Part shown: in pieces, positions 5,467 to 12,812 of the stretch | How the letters are laid out: each line of letters begins with the position of its first letter | Numbering within the stretch: the first letter of the stretch is position 1 | Source: Sphingorhabdus sp. M41 | GTDB taxonomy: Bacteria > Pseudomonadota > Alphaproteobacteria > Sphingomonadales > Sphingomonadaceae | Assembly: GCF_001586275.1 (NCBI RefSeq) | Contig: NZ_CP014545.1 | Span: 558,001 to 622,000, forward strand | DNA length: 64,000 nucleotides | Direction of reading: 5' to 3' | The notes under the pieces: generated by a model | Told to the model about the DNA's origin: nothing | The model's database searches: none | Seen by the model: the letters and a program-made list of their open reading frames with translations, nothing else | Program-made: the position numbers and the translations under genes

Positions 5467-6423
5467 CTAGACCCCTAACGCCGCCGCAGCCTCCCTGATC
5501 CGCTTCGCTTCCGCCCCATCATTCTTGAACGCCTGCAGCCCGCGATCCAGCGCCTGCTTCGCCTGCACCGTCTGGCCCAGTTGCATGCGGCTGCGGATCA
5601 GCATGATCCAGCCGTTGGCGTCCTTGGGATTGGCCTGCAGGCGCTTGTCGAGGCCATCGACCATATTGGCGATCATCGCTTCCTGCTGGCCGGGGGGCAG
5701 GGCGGCGGCCTCTTTCATTTGCTCGCGGCTGGGGCCGGGGATCGCGGCGGTGGCGACCGTCGGGCCGTCAGTGGAGATGCCGCCGGTCGGTGCTGCGGGC
5801 GCCGCTTTCGCGAGCCGGGCGGCGACATCAATGCCTTCATTTTCCGCCACCTGACCGATCACCCGGCGGATATCGGCTGCATAAGGCGCGTCGGCGGGCG
5901 TGTCCTTGAGCAGGGCGAACCAGTCATCGATCGCGCCCTTGTGATCGCCGGCTATGTCTTTCTGAACCGCCAGAAAATAGCGCGCCCGGGCATCCTTTGC
6001 GTCATGTTTCAGGGCATTGCGGAACGCAGCGGCGGCGTCTGGCGGTACTTGCTTGCCATCGCTCGCCATCACCAGGGCCTCACCCAGCATCGACCAATAT
6101 TCCGGATTGTCCGGGTCAAGCGTGGTGGCGCGTTTCATCGCGGTCGCCGATTCGGCAAATTTGCCGGTTTCGAAATAGCTCCACCCGAGCATTCGCCAGC
6201 TTTCCGCATCGTCCGAATTTTCCTGCAGCTTTTTTTCCAGGCCAGCGATCACTTCGTCGACGCTGGGTGCCGTTTCGCTTTCGGTCCCGGCAACAGGCGT
6301 GTTCGAACCTGTCTCGTCATTCATGCTGCGGTAGACCTGCACCGCTATTGCTCCGAGCGCCAGCAAGGCTGCCAAAATCAATGCAATGCGGTTGATATTC
6401 ATCGATGATCCTGATTTCGCCAT
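5467..6423 (-). CDS. CcmI/NrfG-like TPR protein for cytochrome c maturation
   Basis: A 318-residue protein with one N-terminal membrane helix (about residues 10-30), then TPR units (the first at about residues 70-140, WRMLGWSYFETGKFAESA) and a second TPR-like domain at the C-terminus after an Ala/Pro linker. This is the layout of the periplasmic haem-ligation chaperones CcmI (C-terminal part), CycH and NrfG, which hold apocytochrome c for haem attachment. No other ccm gene is nearby. Instead it is divergent, by 241 bases, from an operon encoding a ten-haem cytochrome c, so I infer a dedicated helper. GAGGG before the ATG at 6423 supports that start; Met at 6402 is an alternative. Confidence 0.75.
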   Translation of the reverse strand: MAKSGSSMNINRIALILAALLALGAIAVQVYRSMNDETGSNTPVAGTESETAPSVDEVIAGLEKKLQENSDDAESWRMLGWSYFETGKFAESATAMKRATTLDPDNPEYWSMLGEALVMASDGKQVPPDAAAAFRNALKHDAKDARARYFLAVQKDIAGDHKGAIDDWFALLKDTPADAPYAADIRRVIGQVAENEGIDVAARLAKAAPAAPTGGISTDGPTVATAAIPGPSREQMKEAAALPPGQQEAMIANMVDGLDKRLQANPKDANGWIMLIRSRMQLGQTVQAKQALDRGLQAFKNDGAEAKRIREAAAALGV

Positions 6424-6664: not shown

Positions 6665-9115
6665 GTGTCGGACAAGTTTCGAGTAGTCATAATCGGGTCC
6701 GGACCGGCGGGCATGAGCGCCGCTGGGCGCGCTGCACAGCTGAAATTGAAGCATGTGCTGCTGGAAAAAACCGATCATCTTTCCGATACGATCTTCAAAT
6801 ATCAGAAGGGCAAGCATGTCATGGCGACGCCGAGCCAGCTGGTGCTGCGCTCGGACATGGATTTTGACGCCGGCAAGCGCGAGGCCATTCTCGGCACCTG
6901 GGACGAGCAGACCGCCGCTCATGGCGTCAATGTCATGTACAAGGCCGAGCCGGTGAAAATCGAGGGTGAGGAAGGCAATTTTACCATCACCCTGAAAAAC
7001 GGCGACACCGTGCAGGCCGAAACAATCGTTATGGCCATCGGGACGCAGGGCAATCCCAATCTGATGCGCTGCCCCGGCGGCGACAATCCGCTGGTCCAAT
7101 ATCAGCTCGACGATCCCGGTGAATATTATGACGAGCATATCACGGTGATCGGTTCGGGCGACGCGGGGATCGAAAATGCACTGGGTCTCGCGGCCGATGC
7201 GGCGCAGAATAATGTCGTTACCATTCTCAACCGGTCGACCGAATTTGCCCGGGCGAAGAAAGCCAATGTGAAGCTGCTTATGGAAGCGGGCGAGCAGGGC
7301 AAGGTGATGATCCGCAACGAGACCACGCCGGCCGAGGTCAAGGACGGCGAACTGGTGCTGGAAACCCGCGATGGTCAGGAAACGATCAAATGCGACCGGA
7401 TCATCGCGCGCATGGGCAGCGCGCCACCGCGCAAATTTGTCGAGGAATGCGGGATCGAATTTACCAGCGAGGATCGCGAGGCCTATCCCAAGCTGTCCCC
7501 CGCGTTCGAAAGCACCAAGAAGGGCATTTATGTCATCGGTGCGCTGGCCGGCTATCCGCTGATCAAACACTGTATGAACCAGGGCTATGATGTTATCGAG
7601 TTCATCAACGGCAACAGCGATCTGAAACCCGCCGACGAGCCGATACTCGAAGCAAAATTCAGCAATCTGCCCAGAGGCCGGTCGGTTGATGAATGGCTGG
7701 AATTCTTCCGTTCCAATATAACGATCCTCAACGAGCTTTCGCCCTTGCAGATGCGTGAATTCATGCTCGACAGCGAGCCGCAAAGCTACAGCCGGGGCGA
7801 GACGATTTTCGAGAGGAATGACCCGGGAAGTTCTCTTTTTGCCATTGCCCAGGGATCGGTCGTGGTCGAAATCAATCCCGCAGATCCCTCGATCACCGTG
7901 CCGATCGAGCAGGGATCGATCTTTGGCGAGGTCGGCCTGATTTCAGGACGGAGGCGGGGCGCGACGATCAAGGCGGCGGATGATGTTATCGTAGTCGAAA
8001 TTTCGCGCACGGCGGCGTTGAAATTGCAGGCATCGGTCCCTGCCGCGAAACGCGCCATCACCCGGATTTCGACCGAGCGGCAGTTGCTGCAAATGTTCGG
8101 TTCGGGCCTGACCAAGGAAGATATTGCCGAGGTCGTCGAGACCAGCGAGATCATCAATGTCCGGGCCGGTGAAGCGATTATCGAGGAAGGTGCCGAGGGC
8201 AACGATATTTACGTCATTCGCGTCGGGTCGATGGTTGTCGAGAAAGAGATTGGCGGAAAACCGGTGTTCCTTTCTTATTTGCCGGCCGGGTCCTATGTCG
8301 GCGAAATGACGCTGATCGCCGGTGGCTATCGCACCGCGACGGTCAAGGCTGCAATCAAGTCCGAAGTGATCAAGATCAGCGGCGATGCGTTCAAGAAAGT
8401 GCTCGACGCCCATCCGGACCTGATGCGCAAGGCGAAGAAGGACATGGCCGCGCGTCAGGATATCAACGCCTTTGTCGAGGCCAAGAAGGACAGCTTCTCG
8501 GGTATTGTCGACTATTATTCCGGGGTTGCCAATTTCCTTGTCGACAATGGCATTGGCGAAGCCACGGACGTGTTGCTGATCGATGAAAATCTCTGCGTCG
8601 GTTGCGACAATTGCGAGAAAGCCTGCGCCGACAGTCACGAAGGCCTGTCGCGCCTCGACCGGGAGGCCGGAAAAACCTATGCTCATCTTCATGTGCCGAC
8701 CAGTTGCCGGCATTGCGAGCATCCGCATTGCATGTCCGACTGTCCGCCCGACGCGATCCACCGGGGTCCCGATGGCGAAGTATTCATCGATGACAGCTGC
8801 ATCGGCTGCGGCAATTGCCAGCGCTATTGTCCTTATGGCGTGATCCGCATGGACAAGGTGCCGCCGAAAAAGCCGGGGCTTCTGAGCTGGCTGTTCTTCG
8901 GCGCCGGTCCTGGACCGGGCGAGCCGGATAAAAAATGGACTGCCGAGCATAGCGACCCGTCCATCGAAAAGCCCAAGAAGGCGATCAAATGTGACATGTG
9001 CTCCGGGATTGACGGTGGCCCGGCTTGCGTGCGCGCCTGTCCGACCGGGGCCGCAATCCGCGTGGCACCGGAAGAATTTCTCACCGTATCCAAGCTTGAA
9101 GGGGAAGAGGTGTGA
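6665..9115 (+). CDS. FAD oxidoreductase fused to two cNMP-binding domains and a four-cluster ferredoxin
   Basis: An 816-residue cytoplasmic fusion. Residues 1-330 are a two-dinucleotide-fold flavoprotein: GSGPAG at 11-16 for FAD and GSGDAG near 163 for NAD(P). No redox CxxC is seen in this part. Residues about 358-455 and 480-600 are two cyclic-nucleotide-binding domains, with phosphate-cassette motifs FGEVGLISGRRRGAT and VGEMTLIAGGYRTAT. From residue 644 sixteen Cys form four [4Fe-4S] sites as in DmsB/NrfC: CVGCDNCEKAC, CRHCEHPHCMSDC, CIGCGNCQRYC and CDMC...CVRAC. The start is GTG with AGGGGGAAG upstream. I infer NAD(P)H oxidation gated by cAMP or cGMP, passing electrons to the membrane proteins encoded next. 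Confidence 0.9.
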   Translation: MSDKFRVVIIGSGPAGMSAAGRAAQLKLKHVLLEKTDHLSDTIFKYQKGKHVMATPSQLVLRSDMDFDAGKREAILGTWDEQTAAHGVNVMYKAEPVKIEGEEGNFTITLKNGDTVQAETIVMAIGTQGNPNLMRCPGGDNPLVQYQLDDPGEYYDEHITVIGSGDAGIENALGLAADAAQNNVVTILNRSTEFARAKKANVKLLMEAGEQGKVMIRNETTPAEVKDGELVLETRDGQETIKCDRIIARMGSAPPRKFVEECGIEFTSEDREAYPKLSPAFESTKKGIYVIGALAGYPLIKHCMNQGYDVIEFINGNSDLKPADEPILEAKFSNLPRGRSVDEWLEFFRSNITILNELSPLQMREFMLDSEPQSYSRGETIFERNDPGSSLFAIAQGSVVVEINPADPSITVPIEQGSIFGEVGLISGRRRGATIKAADDVIVVEISRTAALKLQASVPAAKRAITRISTERQLLQMFGSGLTKEDIAEVVETSEIINVRAGEAIIEEGAEGNDIYVIRVGSMVVEKEIGGKPVFLSYLPAGSYVGEMTLIAGGYRTATVKAAIKSEVIKISGDAFKKVLDAHPDLMRKAKKDMAARQDINAFVEAKKDSFSGIVDYYSGVANFLVDNGIGEATDVLLIDENLCVGCDNCEKACADSHEGLSRLDREAGKTYAHLHVPTSCRHCEHPHCMSDCPPDAIHRGPDGEVFIDDSCIGCGNCQRYCPYGVIRMDKVPPKKPGLLSWLFFGAGPGPGEPDKKWTAEHSDPSIEKPKKAIKCDMCSGIDGGPACVRACPTGAAIRVAPEEFLTVSKLEGEEV

Positions 9116-9130
9116 AGCCGTCCCGTTCCG

Positions 9131-9196
9131 TTCGTCCTGAGCCTGTCGAAGGACCTGATTCGATCGCAAACCGTGCTTCGACAAGCTCAGCACGAA
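9131..9196. repeat. REP-like imperfect inverted repeat
   Basis: Two 24-base arms (9131-9154 and 9173-9196) are inverted copies differing at three positions; the core of each is CTGAGC(T/C)TGTCGAAG. Repeats with this core are frequent in sphingomonad genomes. It lies between the first and second gene of the redox operon and could form a stem-loop that lowers read-through or protects the upstream mRNA. Confidence 0.75.
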
Positions 9197-9242
9197 TGGT
9201 AAGAACAGACGCTGAACCCTCTGAGAATGGGGGAATTGTCTA

Positions 9243-10115
9243 ATGGCGAGTCAGGCAATATCCGGCCGCAAGAAAGTCGTGATGCACGACGGGTTTTTGC
9301 GGCATGCCGGTTTCCGCTGGCTGAAAATTTCTGCGGTGATCATGCTGGTCTGTATCGTCAGCTATTTGTTCATCGATGTGTCACCGCGCCACAATGGCGG
9401 TAGCTGGTATGGCTATACGCTGGGCACGATTGGCGCGTTGCTGATCCTCTGGCTGACCATGCTCGGGGTACGCAAACGGGCGATGACGCCCGGCCAATGG
9501 TCGCTCAAGGCGTGGACATCGGCGCATATCTATCTTGGCCTCAGCCTGATCGTGATCGGCACCCTGCATACCGGTTTCCAGCTTGGCTGGAATATCCATA
9601 CCGCGGCCTATGTGTTCATGATGATAGTGATCATTTCCGGCATTGTCGGGATATATTTCTACGTGACGATTCCCAAGGCGCTGTCCGACAATCGCGACGA
9701 GATGACCGAGACAGAGATGCTCGAAAATCTGCGTTCACTCGACCGGCAGCTGCACGAGGCGGCACAGCCTTTGTCAGCAGAACATGCCAGTCTGGTGCTG
9801 CAGTCGCTTGAACAGGATCCTTTCGGCGGAGGATTTGTCCGCCGAATTTCCGGAAAATATCCGGATTGTGCGACCCGGCAAGCGCAGGCCGATCTGCGGC
9901 GCGAACGCGCCTATCAGCCGAAAATGGGTGGTGACGACCCGCTCGACAAGGTCGACTCGCTGCTCGAGAAAAAGGAATCCACTCTCGGCCGCGTTCGCCG
10001 TCATCTCAAGCTCAAGGCGATGTTGCAGGTCTGGTTGTTCGTCCATGTGCCGATGACATTCGCGCTGATCGCATCGCTCACCGCGCATATCATCAGCGTG
10101 TTTTTTTACTGGTAG
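9243..10115 (+). CDS. Di-haem cytochrome b-like membrane protein
   Basis: A 290-residue integral membrane protein with about five helices: residues 27-47, 55-77, 92-112, 118-140 and 263-287. A soluble, charged loop of roughly 115 residues precedes the last helix. Two helices each carry a His pair with the same spacing, H95/H109 and H268/H282, both H-x13-H. That is the arrangement that holds two stacked b haems in bc1-type cytochromes. Sandwiched between a cytosolic Fe-S flavoprotein and a periplasmic multihaem cytochrome, it is the natural trans-membrane electron carrier of the operon. Haem binding is inferred from His spacing; no named family was recognised. Confidence 0.72.
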   Translation: MASQAISGRKKVVMHDGFLRHAGFRWLKISAVIMLVCIVSYLFIDVSPRHNGGSWYGYTLGTIGALLILWLTMLGVRKRAMTPGQWSLKAWTSAHIYLGLSLIVIGTLHTGFQLGWNIHTAAYVFMMIVIISGIVGIYFYVTIPKALSDNRDEMTETEMLENLRSLDRQLHEAAQPLSAEHASLVLQSLEQDPFGGGFVRRISGKYPDCATRQAQADLRRERAYQPKMGGDDPLDKVDSLLEKKESTLGRVRRHLKLKAMLQVWLFVHVPMTFALIASLTAHIISVFFYW

Positions 10116-10130
10116 GATGGAGAGCCCAAT

Positions 10131-11936
10131 ATGACCTTCATCGTTCGCCAGATTGCGACCACCGCCGATGGCCGGGAAATTATCCGGTCCAATCCGTTTT
10201 CCGAGAATGAAATCGGGATCGGCCGCAGCACGACCAATGCAATCCACTTGCCTGATCTTGCGGTCAATCCCGACCATGCCGTCATCCGGAAACGCGACGA
10301 CGGGCAGATCATCATCGAAAGCATCTCGGGCCAGAATTTCACGCTCGACGGCAAACAGCGGATTTCTGTTACCATCGATCCGGCAGCCGGCGCGGAGCTC
10401 GGCTTTGGTGGCCATGTCATTATCGTCAGCGAAGATGGCGAAGATATTGTCCTGACCGTGAAGCGAGTCGAGGCCCTGTCCGATTCCGCCGAAACGCGCA
10501 GCGAAACGACGCTCTATACGCTCAAGGGACTGCTTCCTGGCAAACGGGTAAGCGCCTGGGGTTTCATTGCGCTGGTGCTGGCGGCGTTTCTTGTCTGGCC
10601 GATCTATACCTGGGCGACCTGGCGCGGGGTCGAGGAACGACCCGACCAGTTCCACGCCGACACCATGTGGTCGGCCGGGGCACTGAGCAGCGCGCATCAC
10701 GGGCTCGAGAAAGACTGTCAGGCCTGCCATGTCGACGCTTTTGTCACCGTCCAGGACAAGACCTGTCTCACTTGCCACGAAGAGGATGCGCATGACCATG
10801 CCGCCAAACCGCGGCTGCTGACCGCGCGCGGTGCACCAGAGGGTTTCGGCAAAATAGGCGCTGCTTTTGCGTCCGCTTTCAACAAACCGCCGGGCAGGTG
10901 TGTCGAATGTCACAGCGAGCATGAAGGCGCTGGTGCTATGGAACCCACTGCGCAAAAATTCTGCGCGGATTGCCACGATGGAATGGATGCACGCTTGACC
11001 GACACAATATTGGAAAATGCGTCGGACTTCGGCATTGAACATCCGCAGTTCCGGCCTGCCGTGCTGGTGAGCCCGGGCGGCAACAAGCCGCTGCGCAAAC
11101 GTGTCTCGCTCGATGACAAGCCGACCGACAATAATGGCCTGAAATTTCCGCATGACGTGCATCTGTCGAAGACCGGCGGCGTCGCGCAAATGGGGCGCAG
11201 ACTGTCAAAGGAATATGGTTTCGGCGCGTCGCTCGCGTGCAAGGATTGCCACACACCGGACCCGAAAGGCGTGCGCTTTGAGCCAGTCGACATGAAGGAG
11301 GACTGCAGCATGTGCCACAGTCTTGCCTTTGACGAGATTGGCGGCACGGTGCGAACCCTGCGCCACGGCGAGCCGGCAATGGTCCAGGCCGATCTCAGAG
11401 CCTATTATCGCTCGACCGGGCCGACCCGACCGATCAATCTTGGCGGGATGGCGCGCCGCCGTCCGGGCAGCGGTAACGAGGCTCGCGTTGCCAGCGATTA
11501 CGCCCGCGCCGTCCAGTTCCGCCCAAGCCGTGCCAATCTGGCGATCAGCCAGGTTTTCTCGCGCGGCGGTGCCTGTTTCGACTGTCACGGGATCACTCCG
11601 CCCACTGCGCGCGGACGGGTGGATTACGGCATCAAGCCGGTTACCCAGACCGATCGCTATATGCACAATGGCTGGTTCAGCCATGACGCCCATGTCGAAG
11701 AAACATGTGAGTCCTGCCACGATGCACCGACGTCCAAGGATGCCAGTGATCTGCTGCTACCGGGGATCAAGACCTGCCGCGAATGCCACGGCGGGGAATT
11801 TCAGAAAGCGTCTGACGTGCCTTCAACCTGCGCCATGTGCCATGATTATCACGCCGATGACGGCGCACCATGGCTGATCAAGGAACAGCAGAAAGACAAG
11901 CAGATCAAGCCGGAGAAACAGATTGCCCGGCAATAG
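10131..11936 (+). CDS. FHA domain fused to a decahaem cytochrome c
   Basis: A 601-residue protein. Residues 1-110 form an FHA fold: IGRSTTNAIHLPD followed by VNPDHAVI, where the usual Ser of the SxxH motif is Asn. One membrane helix follows at about residues 141-163. The rest contains ten CxxCH haem-attachment motifs, from residue 196 (CQACH) to 567 (CAMCH), with extra His residues available as distal ligands. Topology is inferred as FHA in the cytoplasm and haem domain in the periplasm. FHA domains bind phosphothreonine peptides, so a phosphorylated partner may dock here. It starts 15 bases after the cytochrome b-like gene. I know no named family with this architecture. Confidence 0.9.
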   Translation: MTFIVRQIATTADGREIIRSNPFSENEIGIGRSTTNAIHLPDLAVNPDHAVIRKRDDGQIIIESISGQNFTLDGKQRISVTIDPAAGAELGFGGHVIIVSEDGEDIVLTVKRVEALSDSAETRSETTLYTLKGLLPGKRVSAWGFIALVLAAFLVWPIYTWATWRGVEERPDQFHADTMWSAGALSSAHHGLEKDCQACHVDAFVTVQDKTCLTCHEEDAHDHAAKPRLLTARGAPEGFGKIGAAFASAFNKPPGRCVECHSEHEGAGAMEPTAQKFCADCHDGMDARLTDTILENASDFGIEHPQFRPAVLVSPGGNKPLRKRVSLDDKPTDNNGLKFPHDVHLSKTGGVAQMGRRLSKEYGFGASLACKDCHTPDPKGVRFEPVDMKEDCSMCHSLAFDEIGGTVRTLRHGEPAMVQADLRAYYRSTGPTRPINLGGMARRRPGSGNEARVASDYARAVQFRPSRANLAISQVFSRGGACFDCHGITPPTARGRVDYGIKPVTQTDRYMHNGWFSHDAHVEETCESCHDAPTSKDASDLLLPGIKTCRECHGGEFQKASDVPSTCAMCHDYHADDGAPWLIKEQQKDKQIKPEKQIARQ

Positions 11937-11963
11937 GGCGAGCGGAAAAAGGGGAGGGCGTCC

Positions 11964-12812
11964 ATGTTAATGGCGCAGATCACGGATATTCACCTGGGCT
12001 TTGACCCTGATAATCCGGCAGAATTCAACCGCAAGCGGCTCGATCAGGCGATCAAGATGATTTGCGCGATGAGCCCGCAGCCCGATATCTTGCTCGCCAC
12101 CGGCGATCTTGTCGATCGCGGCGATCAGGAAAGCTATCGCCGGCTGGAAAATGCTTTGTCGGTTGTGCCTTTCCCGGTCCACATGTGTCTCGGCAACCAC
12201 GATCTGCGGACGCCGTTCAACAAGCAATTCCCCGATGTCCCGACAGCGGATGGCTTTGTCCAATATGAGGTCGATACGCCGGAACTCCGGCTGCTGTTTC
12301 TCGATACGCTGGAAGAGGGCCGGCATGGCGGCGCCTTTTGCAAGGTCCGCGCTGCATGGCTGTCGGACCGCCTCGCTGAAAAGCAGGACAAGCCGACAAT
12401 CCTGATCCTGCACCATCCGCCGGTGGAAAGTGGCATCGAGTGGATGACCACCCATCCGGACGAGCCCTGGGTGACGCGGCTGGCTGGCACGGTCGCTGGC
12501 CATGATCAGGTCAAGGGCATGATTACCGGTCATTTGCACCGCAATATCTCGACCTGGTGGGGAGACATCAGTCTGGCGATCTGCGCCTCGACCGCGCCGC
12601 AAGTGGCGCTCGATCTCAACCCGATCGATCCCGAGCATCCCGATGGCCGCAACATGATCGTCGCCGACCCACCGGCTATTGCCCTGCATTACTGGAACGG
12701 TCGTCAGCTGATCAGCCATTTCGAAAATGCCGAGGAGCATGTCATGCTGGCTCGTTACGACGAGAATCTGCAGCCGCTGGTCCGCGCTCTGCTGGCCGAG
12801 CGACCGGAATAG
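11964..12812 (+). CDS. CpdA-like class III cyclic-nucleotide phosphodiesterase
   Basis: A 282-residue calcineurin-type metallophosphoesterase. The five metal motifs are in order: DIH at residues 8-10, GDLVDRGD, GNHD, the His of LHHPP and GHLH. Length and motif spacing match CpdA, which hydrolyses 3',5'-cAMP using two metal ions in the cytoplasm. A strong ribosome site (AGGGGAGGG) precedes the ATG. It is the last gene of the redox operon, 27 bases after the decahaem cytochrome. Since the first gene carries two cNMP-binding domains, the enzyme probably resets that signal; this link is inference. Other small phosphodiester substrates cannot be excluded. Confidence 0.85.
   Translation: MLMAQITDIHLGFDPDNPAEFNRKRLDQAIKMICAMSPQPDILLATGDLVDRGDQESYRRLENALSVVPFPVHMCLGNHDLRTPFNKQFPDVPTADGFVQYEVDTPELRLLFLDTLEEGRHGGAFCKVRAAWLSDRLAEKQDKPTILILHHPPVESGIEWMTTHPDEPWVTRLAGTVAGHDQVKGMITGHLHRNISTWWGDISLAICASTAPQVALDLNPIDPEHPDGRNMIVADPPAIALHYWNGRQLISHFENAEEHVMLARYDENLQPLVRALLAERPE

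Follow-up and report, generated by a model that had tools for sequence, protein, structure and literature searches.

We analysed a 64,000-nt window of the genome of Sphingorhabdus sp. M41 (Sphingomonadaceae), the whole stretch of DNA to which the coordinates below refer, and focused on a four-gene locus at positions 6665–12812 that had been predicted to encode a transmembrane electron conduit together with proteins that sense and erase a cyclic nucleotide. The locus combines a flavo-iron-sulfur oxidoreductase, a membrane protein, a decahaem cytochrome c and a phosphodiesterase.

The four genes and their conserved cofactor sites

The coordinates and domain assignments of all four open reading frames (ORFs) were borne out by ORF translation and by Pfam, and the cofactor-binding residues turned out to be invariant in distant relatives. 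The gene content stands as originally predicted. The genes and their domains are as follows (FAD, flavin adenine dinucleotide; cNMP, cyclic nucleoside monophosphate).

6665–9115, plus strand: gene 1 (816 aa), FAD/NAD(P) oxidoreductase with tandem cNMP-binding domains and four [4Fe-4S] ferredoxin sites
6677–7585, plus strand: pyridine-nucleotide/FAD domain of gene 1 (residues 5–307), YpdA/TrxR-like, without the YpdA Cys
7781–8026, plus strand: cNMP-binding domain A of gene 1, with E422 and R431
8156–8413, plus strand: cNMP-binding domain B of gene 1, with E547 and R556
8573–9073, plus strand: HycB/HydN/DmsB-like ferredoxin region of gene 1, 16 Cys in four sets
9243–10115, plus strand: gene 2 (290 aa), membrane protein, putative dihaem cytochrome b
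10131–11936, plus strand: gene 3 (601 aa), FHA domain, one transmembrane segment and ten CXXCH haem c sites
10218–10370, plus strand: FHA domain of gene 3 (residues 30–80), presumably cytoplasmic
10548–10604, plus strand: single hydrophobic transmembrane segment of gene 3 (residues 140–158)
10716–11843, plus strand: decahaem region of gene 3, CXXCH at residues 196, 212, 257, 278, 370, 392, 482, 526, 549 and 567
11964–12812, plus strand: gene 4 (282 aa), class III (calcineurin-like) phosphodiesterase

Gene 1 matched Pyr_redox_2/3, two cNMP_binding domains (PF00027, 108.5 bits in total) and a Fer4-type region in Pfam. Among 13 aligned homologues, which are 44–78% identical to gene 1 (the most distant ones 44–49%), all 16 cluster-site cysteines are invariant, as are the phosphate-binding-cassette Glu and Arg of both cNMP pockets (E422/R431 and E547/R556). 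The tandem domains align over ~218 residues with the regulatory domains of PKA-RI and PKG (E 3.5e-16 to PKA-RI) and keep the pocket Glu and Arg, and they would bind a cyclic nucleotide, most likely cAMP; they differ from the kinase regulatory domains in being coupled to an oxidoreductase. The N-terminal half resembles YpdA/Bdr and thioredoxin reductase in fold and sequence (TIGR04018, 121.8 bits against a cut-off of 339.9). We nevertheless rejected gene 1 as a bacillithiol disulfide reductase (YpdA/Bdr) because the Cys of the GGGPCG motif is replaced by Ala (GSGPAG), and this position reads G-P-A/G-G in all 13 homologues. For genes 1, 2 and 4, all named relatives in NCBIfam score below their cut-offs.

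Gene 2 carries two H-x13-H pairs, H95/H109 and H268/H282, and a fifth conserved His, H119, all invariant among 11 homologues, which is consistent with a putative dihaem cytochrome b. The membrane domains of the NOX/FRE group likewise have a pair of helices with two His pairs at a 13-residue spacing, and FAD and NAD(P)H on the inner side. Gene 2 was rejected as a member of the ferric reductase family, since it gives no match to PF01794 (Ferric_reduct), and the system further differs from NOX/FRE in placing a disulphide-reductase-type flavin domain on a separate protein and in adding a [4Fe-4S] relay and a periplasmic decahaem protein.

Gene 3 matched FHA (23.5 bits, cut-off 20.7) and multihaem c domains in Pfam, and its sole pass in NCBIfam is a generic doubled-CXXCH domain (27.3 against 25.2 bits). 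All ten CXXCH motifs are invariant in 11 homologues. Nine further His residues (H189, H223, H264, H304, H341, H344, H412, H518 and H574) are invariant too and H521 is nearly so, which would be enough for bis-His ligation. As the hydrophobic segment lies between the FHA domain and the haems, the FHA domain should be cytoplasmic. The FHA control that had been proposed finds no support in the phospho-Thr reader motif (GR ... S-x-x-H), from which gene 3 departs: G31 and R32 are invariant, whereas the motif Ser is N46 here and is kept by a single one of the 11 diverse homologues, and H49 is invariant in 37 Sphingomonadales but not across all 11. Phospho-control through this domain is doubtful, and we dropped it.

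Gene 4 belongs to Metallophos in Pfam, and its metal ligands D8, H10, D48, N78, H79, H150, H190 and H192 are invariant in 11/11 homologues. It shares the D-x-H, GD, GNHD, HH and GHxH motifs with SpdA, CpdA and Rv0805, the last being its best solved relative, but falls below the curated cut-offs of the two nearest named families (SpdA, 138.1 against 400 bits; CpdA, 80.8 against 225), so that its specificity may be for 3',5'- or for 2',3'-cyclic nucleotides.

Conservation of the gene order was assessed in 31 loci selected by a gene 3 match, seven of them outside Sphingomonadaceae. Genes 1, 2 and 3 are consecutive and co-directional in all 31, including two distant genomes (G297 and G181) in which genes 1 and 2 are fused, with gene 2 joined to the ferredoxin end; this fusion supports direct electron transfer from gene 1 to gene 2. 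Gene 4 adjoins the core in 23 of the 31 loci and lies away from it in G400; in the other seven, among them G149, whose sequence stops about 0.7 kb past gene 3, it was not found. A scan of named relatives, covering the best 80 of at least 556 (these 80 all from Sphingomonadales or unclassified bins), found all of genes 1–3 in 76 and adjacent in 74 of these 76; the closest for gene 1 among these 80 are Sphingorhabdus sp. 109 (95%) and Parasphingorhabdus flavimaris (94%). Gene 4 is present in 60 of the 62 named loci longer than 20 kb. The predicted gene order is upheld, in all 31 loci for genes 1–3 and in 23 for gene 4. As a four-gene system the locus needs redrawing: the core is three genes, gene 4 is a family-level addition, and the full set runs to about ten genes, which fall into two or three blocks.

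A putative outer-membrane module and a linked cyclase

Clustering of the genes neighbouring the core brought out the outer-membrane half of the system, which the original prediction had not recognised. A protein of ~1300–1390 aa with ten CXXCH motifs and LVIVD repeats (hereafter the giant cytochrome) lies in 11 of the 31 core loci, and so does a barrel-like protein of ~620–660 aa (11/31), accompanied by an HbpS-like lipoprotein. In Sphingorhabdus sp. M41 itself this module is located at G000:C1:2335157-2344921, about 1.8 Mb from the core, where four genes stand in a row, encoding a c554-like protein with four CXXCH motifs, the HbpS-like lipoprotein, the barrel-like protein and the giant cytochrome (~1390 aa, decahaem/LVIVD). 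The lipoprotein, barrel and giant cytochrome were kept together in 13/13 fetched loci and the c554-like gene in 12/13.

The two halves also co-occur. In a sample of 149 genomes of the family, gene 3 gave 55 matches, of which three weak ones (G011, G118 and G017) were dropped; 52 genomes have a strong gene 3, 53 have the giant cytochrome and 52 have both, the single extra genome (G022) being 67% complete. The giant cytochrome tracks gene 3 in each of six genera holding both positives and negatives, with the negatives taken among the genomes listed. In a phylum-wide sample of 398 genomes, gene 3 gave 38 matches (23 weak ones dropped) and the giant cytochrome 25 (14 dropped), leaving 15 and 11 strong genomes, respectively, and all 11 are among the 15. 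In many genomes the two halves are physically linked as well: in seven of ten chosen genomes a single block contains the four-gene operon and the outer module, facing one another, and the giant cytochrome shares the locus with the core in 42 of the 62 named loci longer than 20 kb. In G505, from another class, genes 1–3 are tightly packed in a single co-directional run with lipoprotein, barrel and giant cytochrome. G513, from another family, shows the same arrangement, except that the c554-like gene and one further ORF are interposed (its giant gene was cut by the fetched piece and found by search).

An ORF at L070 5834-7366, inside the G513 conduit run, resembles glutamate dehydrogenase by eye, and homologues of it lie near the core in L061, L063 and L072. 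Among plasmid records (H1-H25), gene 3 and the giant cytochrome occur together on twelve Sphingobium megaplasmids, and one Sphingopyxis indica plasmid has the giant cytochrome and no gene 3 match; the annotations in these records read hypothetical, 'cytochrome c3 family protein' or 'multiheme c-type cytochrome'.

The barrel proteins P0006, P0010 and P0013 gave no Pfam family at E 0.1 and do not classify as MtrB/PioB-type barrels. The giant cytochrome P0014 barely passes PF22113 (MtrC/MtrF-like; 30.6 against 30 bits), has a signal-like N-terminus and has no solved-structure relatives at E 0.1; in NCBIfam it comes closest to ExtM (64 bits against a cut-off of 800), a family named for selenite/tellurite reduction.

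A PF00211 cyclase is present in 64 of the 149 family genomes, namely in 52/52 with gene 3, in G022 and in 11 of 96 without both modules. In the 52 gene 3 genomes (a comparison that excludes G022), the start of the cyclase is at most 40 kb from the giant cytochrome in 40; the two lie farther apart on the same contig in five and share no contig in seven. The linked cyclases form one homology cluster in nine of ten genomes; the tenth, that of Sphingorhabdus sp. M41, was cut by the end of the region and read separately. CHASE2 and PF00211 both scored above the Pfam cut-off in the M41 cyclase (L211 5001-7052) and in that of G400 (L072 15808-17667), where the CHASE2 cyclase is directly downstream of the displaced gene 4 homologue. 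The cyclase keeps Lys-x-x-Gly-Asp, and Thr replaces the adenine-contacting Asp of the mammalian enzymes, a pattern that we assume, as a lead only, to be that of bicarbonate-responsive adenylyl cyclases. The cyclic-nucleotide sensor and eraser that had been predicted for this gene set are supported.

Several genes around the cyclase and the messenger may be recorded here. Directly before the M41 CHASE2 cyclase is a TPR-CHAT protein of 1055 aa (L211 1834-4998), and after it come a small secreted-looking protein without a Pfam match and a ShlB/FhaC-type secretion barrel. Elsewhere in the same genome (L225), a 609-aa protein joins a cNMP-binding domain that keeps Glu and Arg to a part resembling, by eye, a patatin-type lipase.

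Proposed electron route, its switching and the alternatives

The combined evidence moderately favours a conduit that would carry electrons from NAD(P)H to the cell surface, bypass the quinones and be switched by a cyclic nucleotide. Genes 1–3 would form an inner-membrane complex oxidising cytosolic NAD(P)H, with electrons passing from FAD through four [4Fe-4S] clusters and across the membrane over two b haems to the ten periplasmic c haems of gene 3, leaving out the quinone pool. The order of the cofactors (cytosolic flavin and iron-sulfur sites, the His pairs of gene 2, periplasmic haems), together with the fusion of genes 1 and 2, argues that NAD(P)H electrons cross the inner membrane by such a direct path, and the cytosol-to-periplasm path of the original prediction is supported. 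From gene 3, electrons would reach the outer-membrane module, probably with the tetrahaem c554-like protein as go-between, and there the giant decahaem/LVIVD protein, the beta-barrel and the HbpS-like lipoprotein would pass them to an acceptor at the cell surface. The linked CHASE2 cyclase would make the cyclic nucleotide, gene 1 would bind it and thereby gate electron entry, and gene 4 would remove it. Because the membrane potential (inside negative) favours the exit of electrons, the module should dissipate rather than conserve energy, and it would suit the disposal of reductant or the reduction of something outside better than growth by inward uptake. Extracellular electron transfer had been listed as one of several possibilities; the linked and co-occurring outer-membrane module now makes it the favoured one.

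A more ambitious version, which we consider somewhat less likely than not, is that a second messenger controls the entry enzyme allosterically by way of its PKA-like tandem domains. Together with a linked cyclase, a phosphodiesterase and an outer-membrane exit, this might let otherwise aerobic bacteria turn quinone-independent extracellular disposal of electrons on and off within seconds, which would be a categorically new regulatory principle.

A number of observations weigh against the proposed route. The Fisher p of about 1e-39 for the co-occurrence of gene 3 and the giant cytochrome ignores phylogeny. Four of the seven gene 3 genomes outside the family (G149, G181, G297 and G298) have no strong giant cytochrome, implying that the core can work with another partner or with none; the neighbours in G298 include lipoprotein- and barrel-like genes. 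None of the seven outside-family loci has gene 4 beside the core (displaced in G400, not found in six). The match of gene 2 to the b561 type is weak and sub-threshold (PF01292, 24.9 bits against a curated cut-off of 30.1), and its predicted structure (predicted local distance difference test (pLDDT) score 83.7) matched no solved fold in Foldseek (best E 0.16). The barrel model is poor (pLDDT 53.4); it shows 18 strands, and its hits to porins, the AlgE type being nearest, should be taken as suggestive. As to the messenger, 12 of the 52 genomes have their cyclase more than 40 kb from the giant cytochrome or on no contig shared with it. Moreover, M41 has seven PF00027 proteins, of which the conduit protein and three others carry the Glu/Arg pattern and three do not. 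With at least three other proteins of this kind, the messenger would not be dedicated to the conduit and probably has further targets in this genome.

The conduit might instead end in the periplasm, with genes 1–3 feeding low-potential electrons to a periplasmic reductase, detoxification or haem/iron chemistry. In that case the HbpS/barrel/giant-cytochrome module would itself be the enzyme, in the periplasm or at the surface, and would not serve as an exit to solid acceptors. The outside-family genomes with genes 1–3 and no strong giant cytochrome fit this account, as do the haem-degrading annotation of HbpS-like domains, the selenite/tellurite family that is the best match of the giant cytochrome, and its signal-like N-terminus. 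The barrel-like protein beside the giant cytochrome in every one of the 13 fetched loci argues for an outer-membrane exit, and wires that cross the envelope typically have two decahaem proteins in series; we regard a periplasmic end as unlikely, if still credible.

It is improbable, in our judgement, that the cNMP domains are structural relics without gating and that the cyclase is linked by chance. The unlinked cyclases and the other M41 proteins that look able to bind the messenger would agree with such relics, but Glu and Arg are kept in both pockets of all 13 diverse homologues, and the cyclase occurs in all 52 family genomes with gene 3. Of 24 family loci, 23 have the phosphodiesterase in the operon, and in G400 it is beside the CHASE2 cyclase.

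Genes 2 and 3 could also constitute a quinol dehydrogenase of the CbcL/ImcH functional type, with gene 1 serving as a regulated side entry or reducing quinone through gene 2. The b561-type group, to which gene 2 has its weak match, includes quinone-reactive members. The known inner-membrane partners of bacterial extracellular electron transfer are quinol oxidases or quinone reductases (PMC6295460). CymA, CbcL and ImcH resemble the present core as entry points at the inner membrane into a multihaem chain; they use the quinone pool (PMC6295460), whereas the entry here is an NAD(P)H flavo-iron-sulfur protein adjacent or fused to a b cytochrome. Genes 2 and 3 gave no CymA/CbcL/ImcH-type match in NCBIfam or Pfam at E 0.1, libraries whose coverage of such models was unchecked, and a FAD and [4Fe-4S] protein always adjoins gene 2 and is fused to it in two genomes; we consider a quinol dehydrogenase quite improbable. 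Inward flow, in which an extracellular donor would reduce NAD(P)+ through the conduit, is very improbable even though porin-cytochrome conduits can work in both directions and Rhodopseudomonas palustris PioAB is required for inward transfer (PMC8805035), as the operon has no energy-coupling subunit and, on bioenergetic grounds, the membrane potential would oppose electrons moving inward to NAD(P)+, a low-potential acceptor.

A surface-directed conduit fed by NAD(P)H invites comparison with MtrCAB, PioAB and MtoAB. These likewise have decahaem c-type cytochromes encoded with an outer-membrane barrel, as in the 13/13 adjacent loci here, and they pass electrons across the outer membrane, as we suppose for the present system. 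Here, in contrast, no Pfam family matches the barrel at E 0.1, its 18-strand model is of low confidence, and the system adds a ~1390-aa cytochrome with an LVIVD propeller, an HbpS-like lipoprotein and cNMP machinery. PMC8805035, which describes MtrCAB and PioAB, reports only one alphaproteobacterial match to MtrCAB. Candidatus Tenderia electrophaga, an aerobe, also has a multihaem protein, an undecahaem cytochrome, with a proposed role in extracellular electron transfer (PMC5371394); in a comparison by description, the accessible text of that paper mentions no cNMP, FHA or NAD(P)H flavoprotein partner. The present gene set is not mentioned in the accessible portions of PMC11475568 or PMC5371394. 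The literature searched turned up no named system with this combination, in agreement with the original prediction, although subscription journals cannot be judged. Judged by domains and motifs, the locus and its outer module would be a trans-envelope multihaem conduit in which both the entry, an NAD(P)H flavo-iron-sulfur protein carrying cNMP domains in tandem, and the exit, made of the LVIVD decahaem protein, small barrel and HbpS lipoprotein, fall outside the named families tested.

If this proposal holds, more than a third of the sampled Sphingomonadaceae genomes (52/149) would carry a dedicated wire to the outside. Many carriers are cultured organisms regarded as aerobes. Screens built on Mtr, Omc and Pcc proteins or on quinol dehydrogenases could miss such a conduit. 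A direct path from NAD(P)H to the outside, and second-messenger gating of an electron-transport enzyme, would become testable in cultured strains, and several giant, unnamed multihaem proteins would be offered one testable function.

Intergenic features and flanking genes

Two further features were noted between and beside the four genes.

9131–9196, no strand assigned: inverted repeat pair within the gap between genes 1 and 2
5467–6423, minus strand: TPR protein of the CcmI/CycH type (PF23914, 95.5 bits), divergent from the operon

Genes 1–4 are separated by 127, 15 and 27 bp and are likely to be on one shared transcript. The 127-bp gap between genes 1 and 2 holds the repeat, a 20-mer with 0 and 2 mismatches where 0.01 matches are expected by chance, which we take to be a sphingomonad interspersed repeat of a common type; unlike here, genes 1 and 2 almost abut or overlap in several relatives. 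A promoter and terminator scan of the locus was uninformative (3 promoter-like sites against 3.3 expected).

The main ccm operon was rejected as a regular neighbour of the core because CcmF appeared in only 4 of 112 sources. A CcmF-like gene does stand immediately upstream of gene 1 in four loci (L072, L077, L078 and L152), a possible link to cytochrome c maturation. The CycH-like TPR gene was found in 61 of the 62 named loci longer than 20 kb, and its CcmI/CycH-type product could possibly help in the attachment of haem c.

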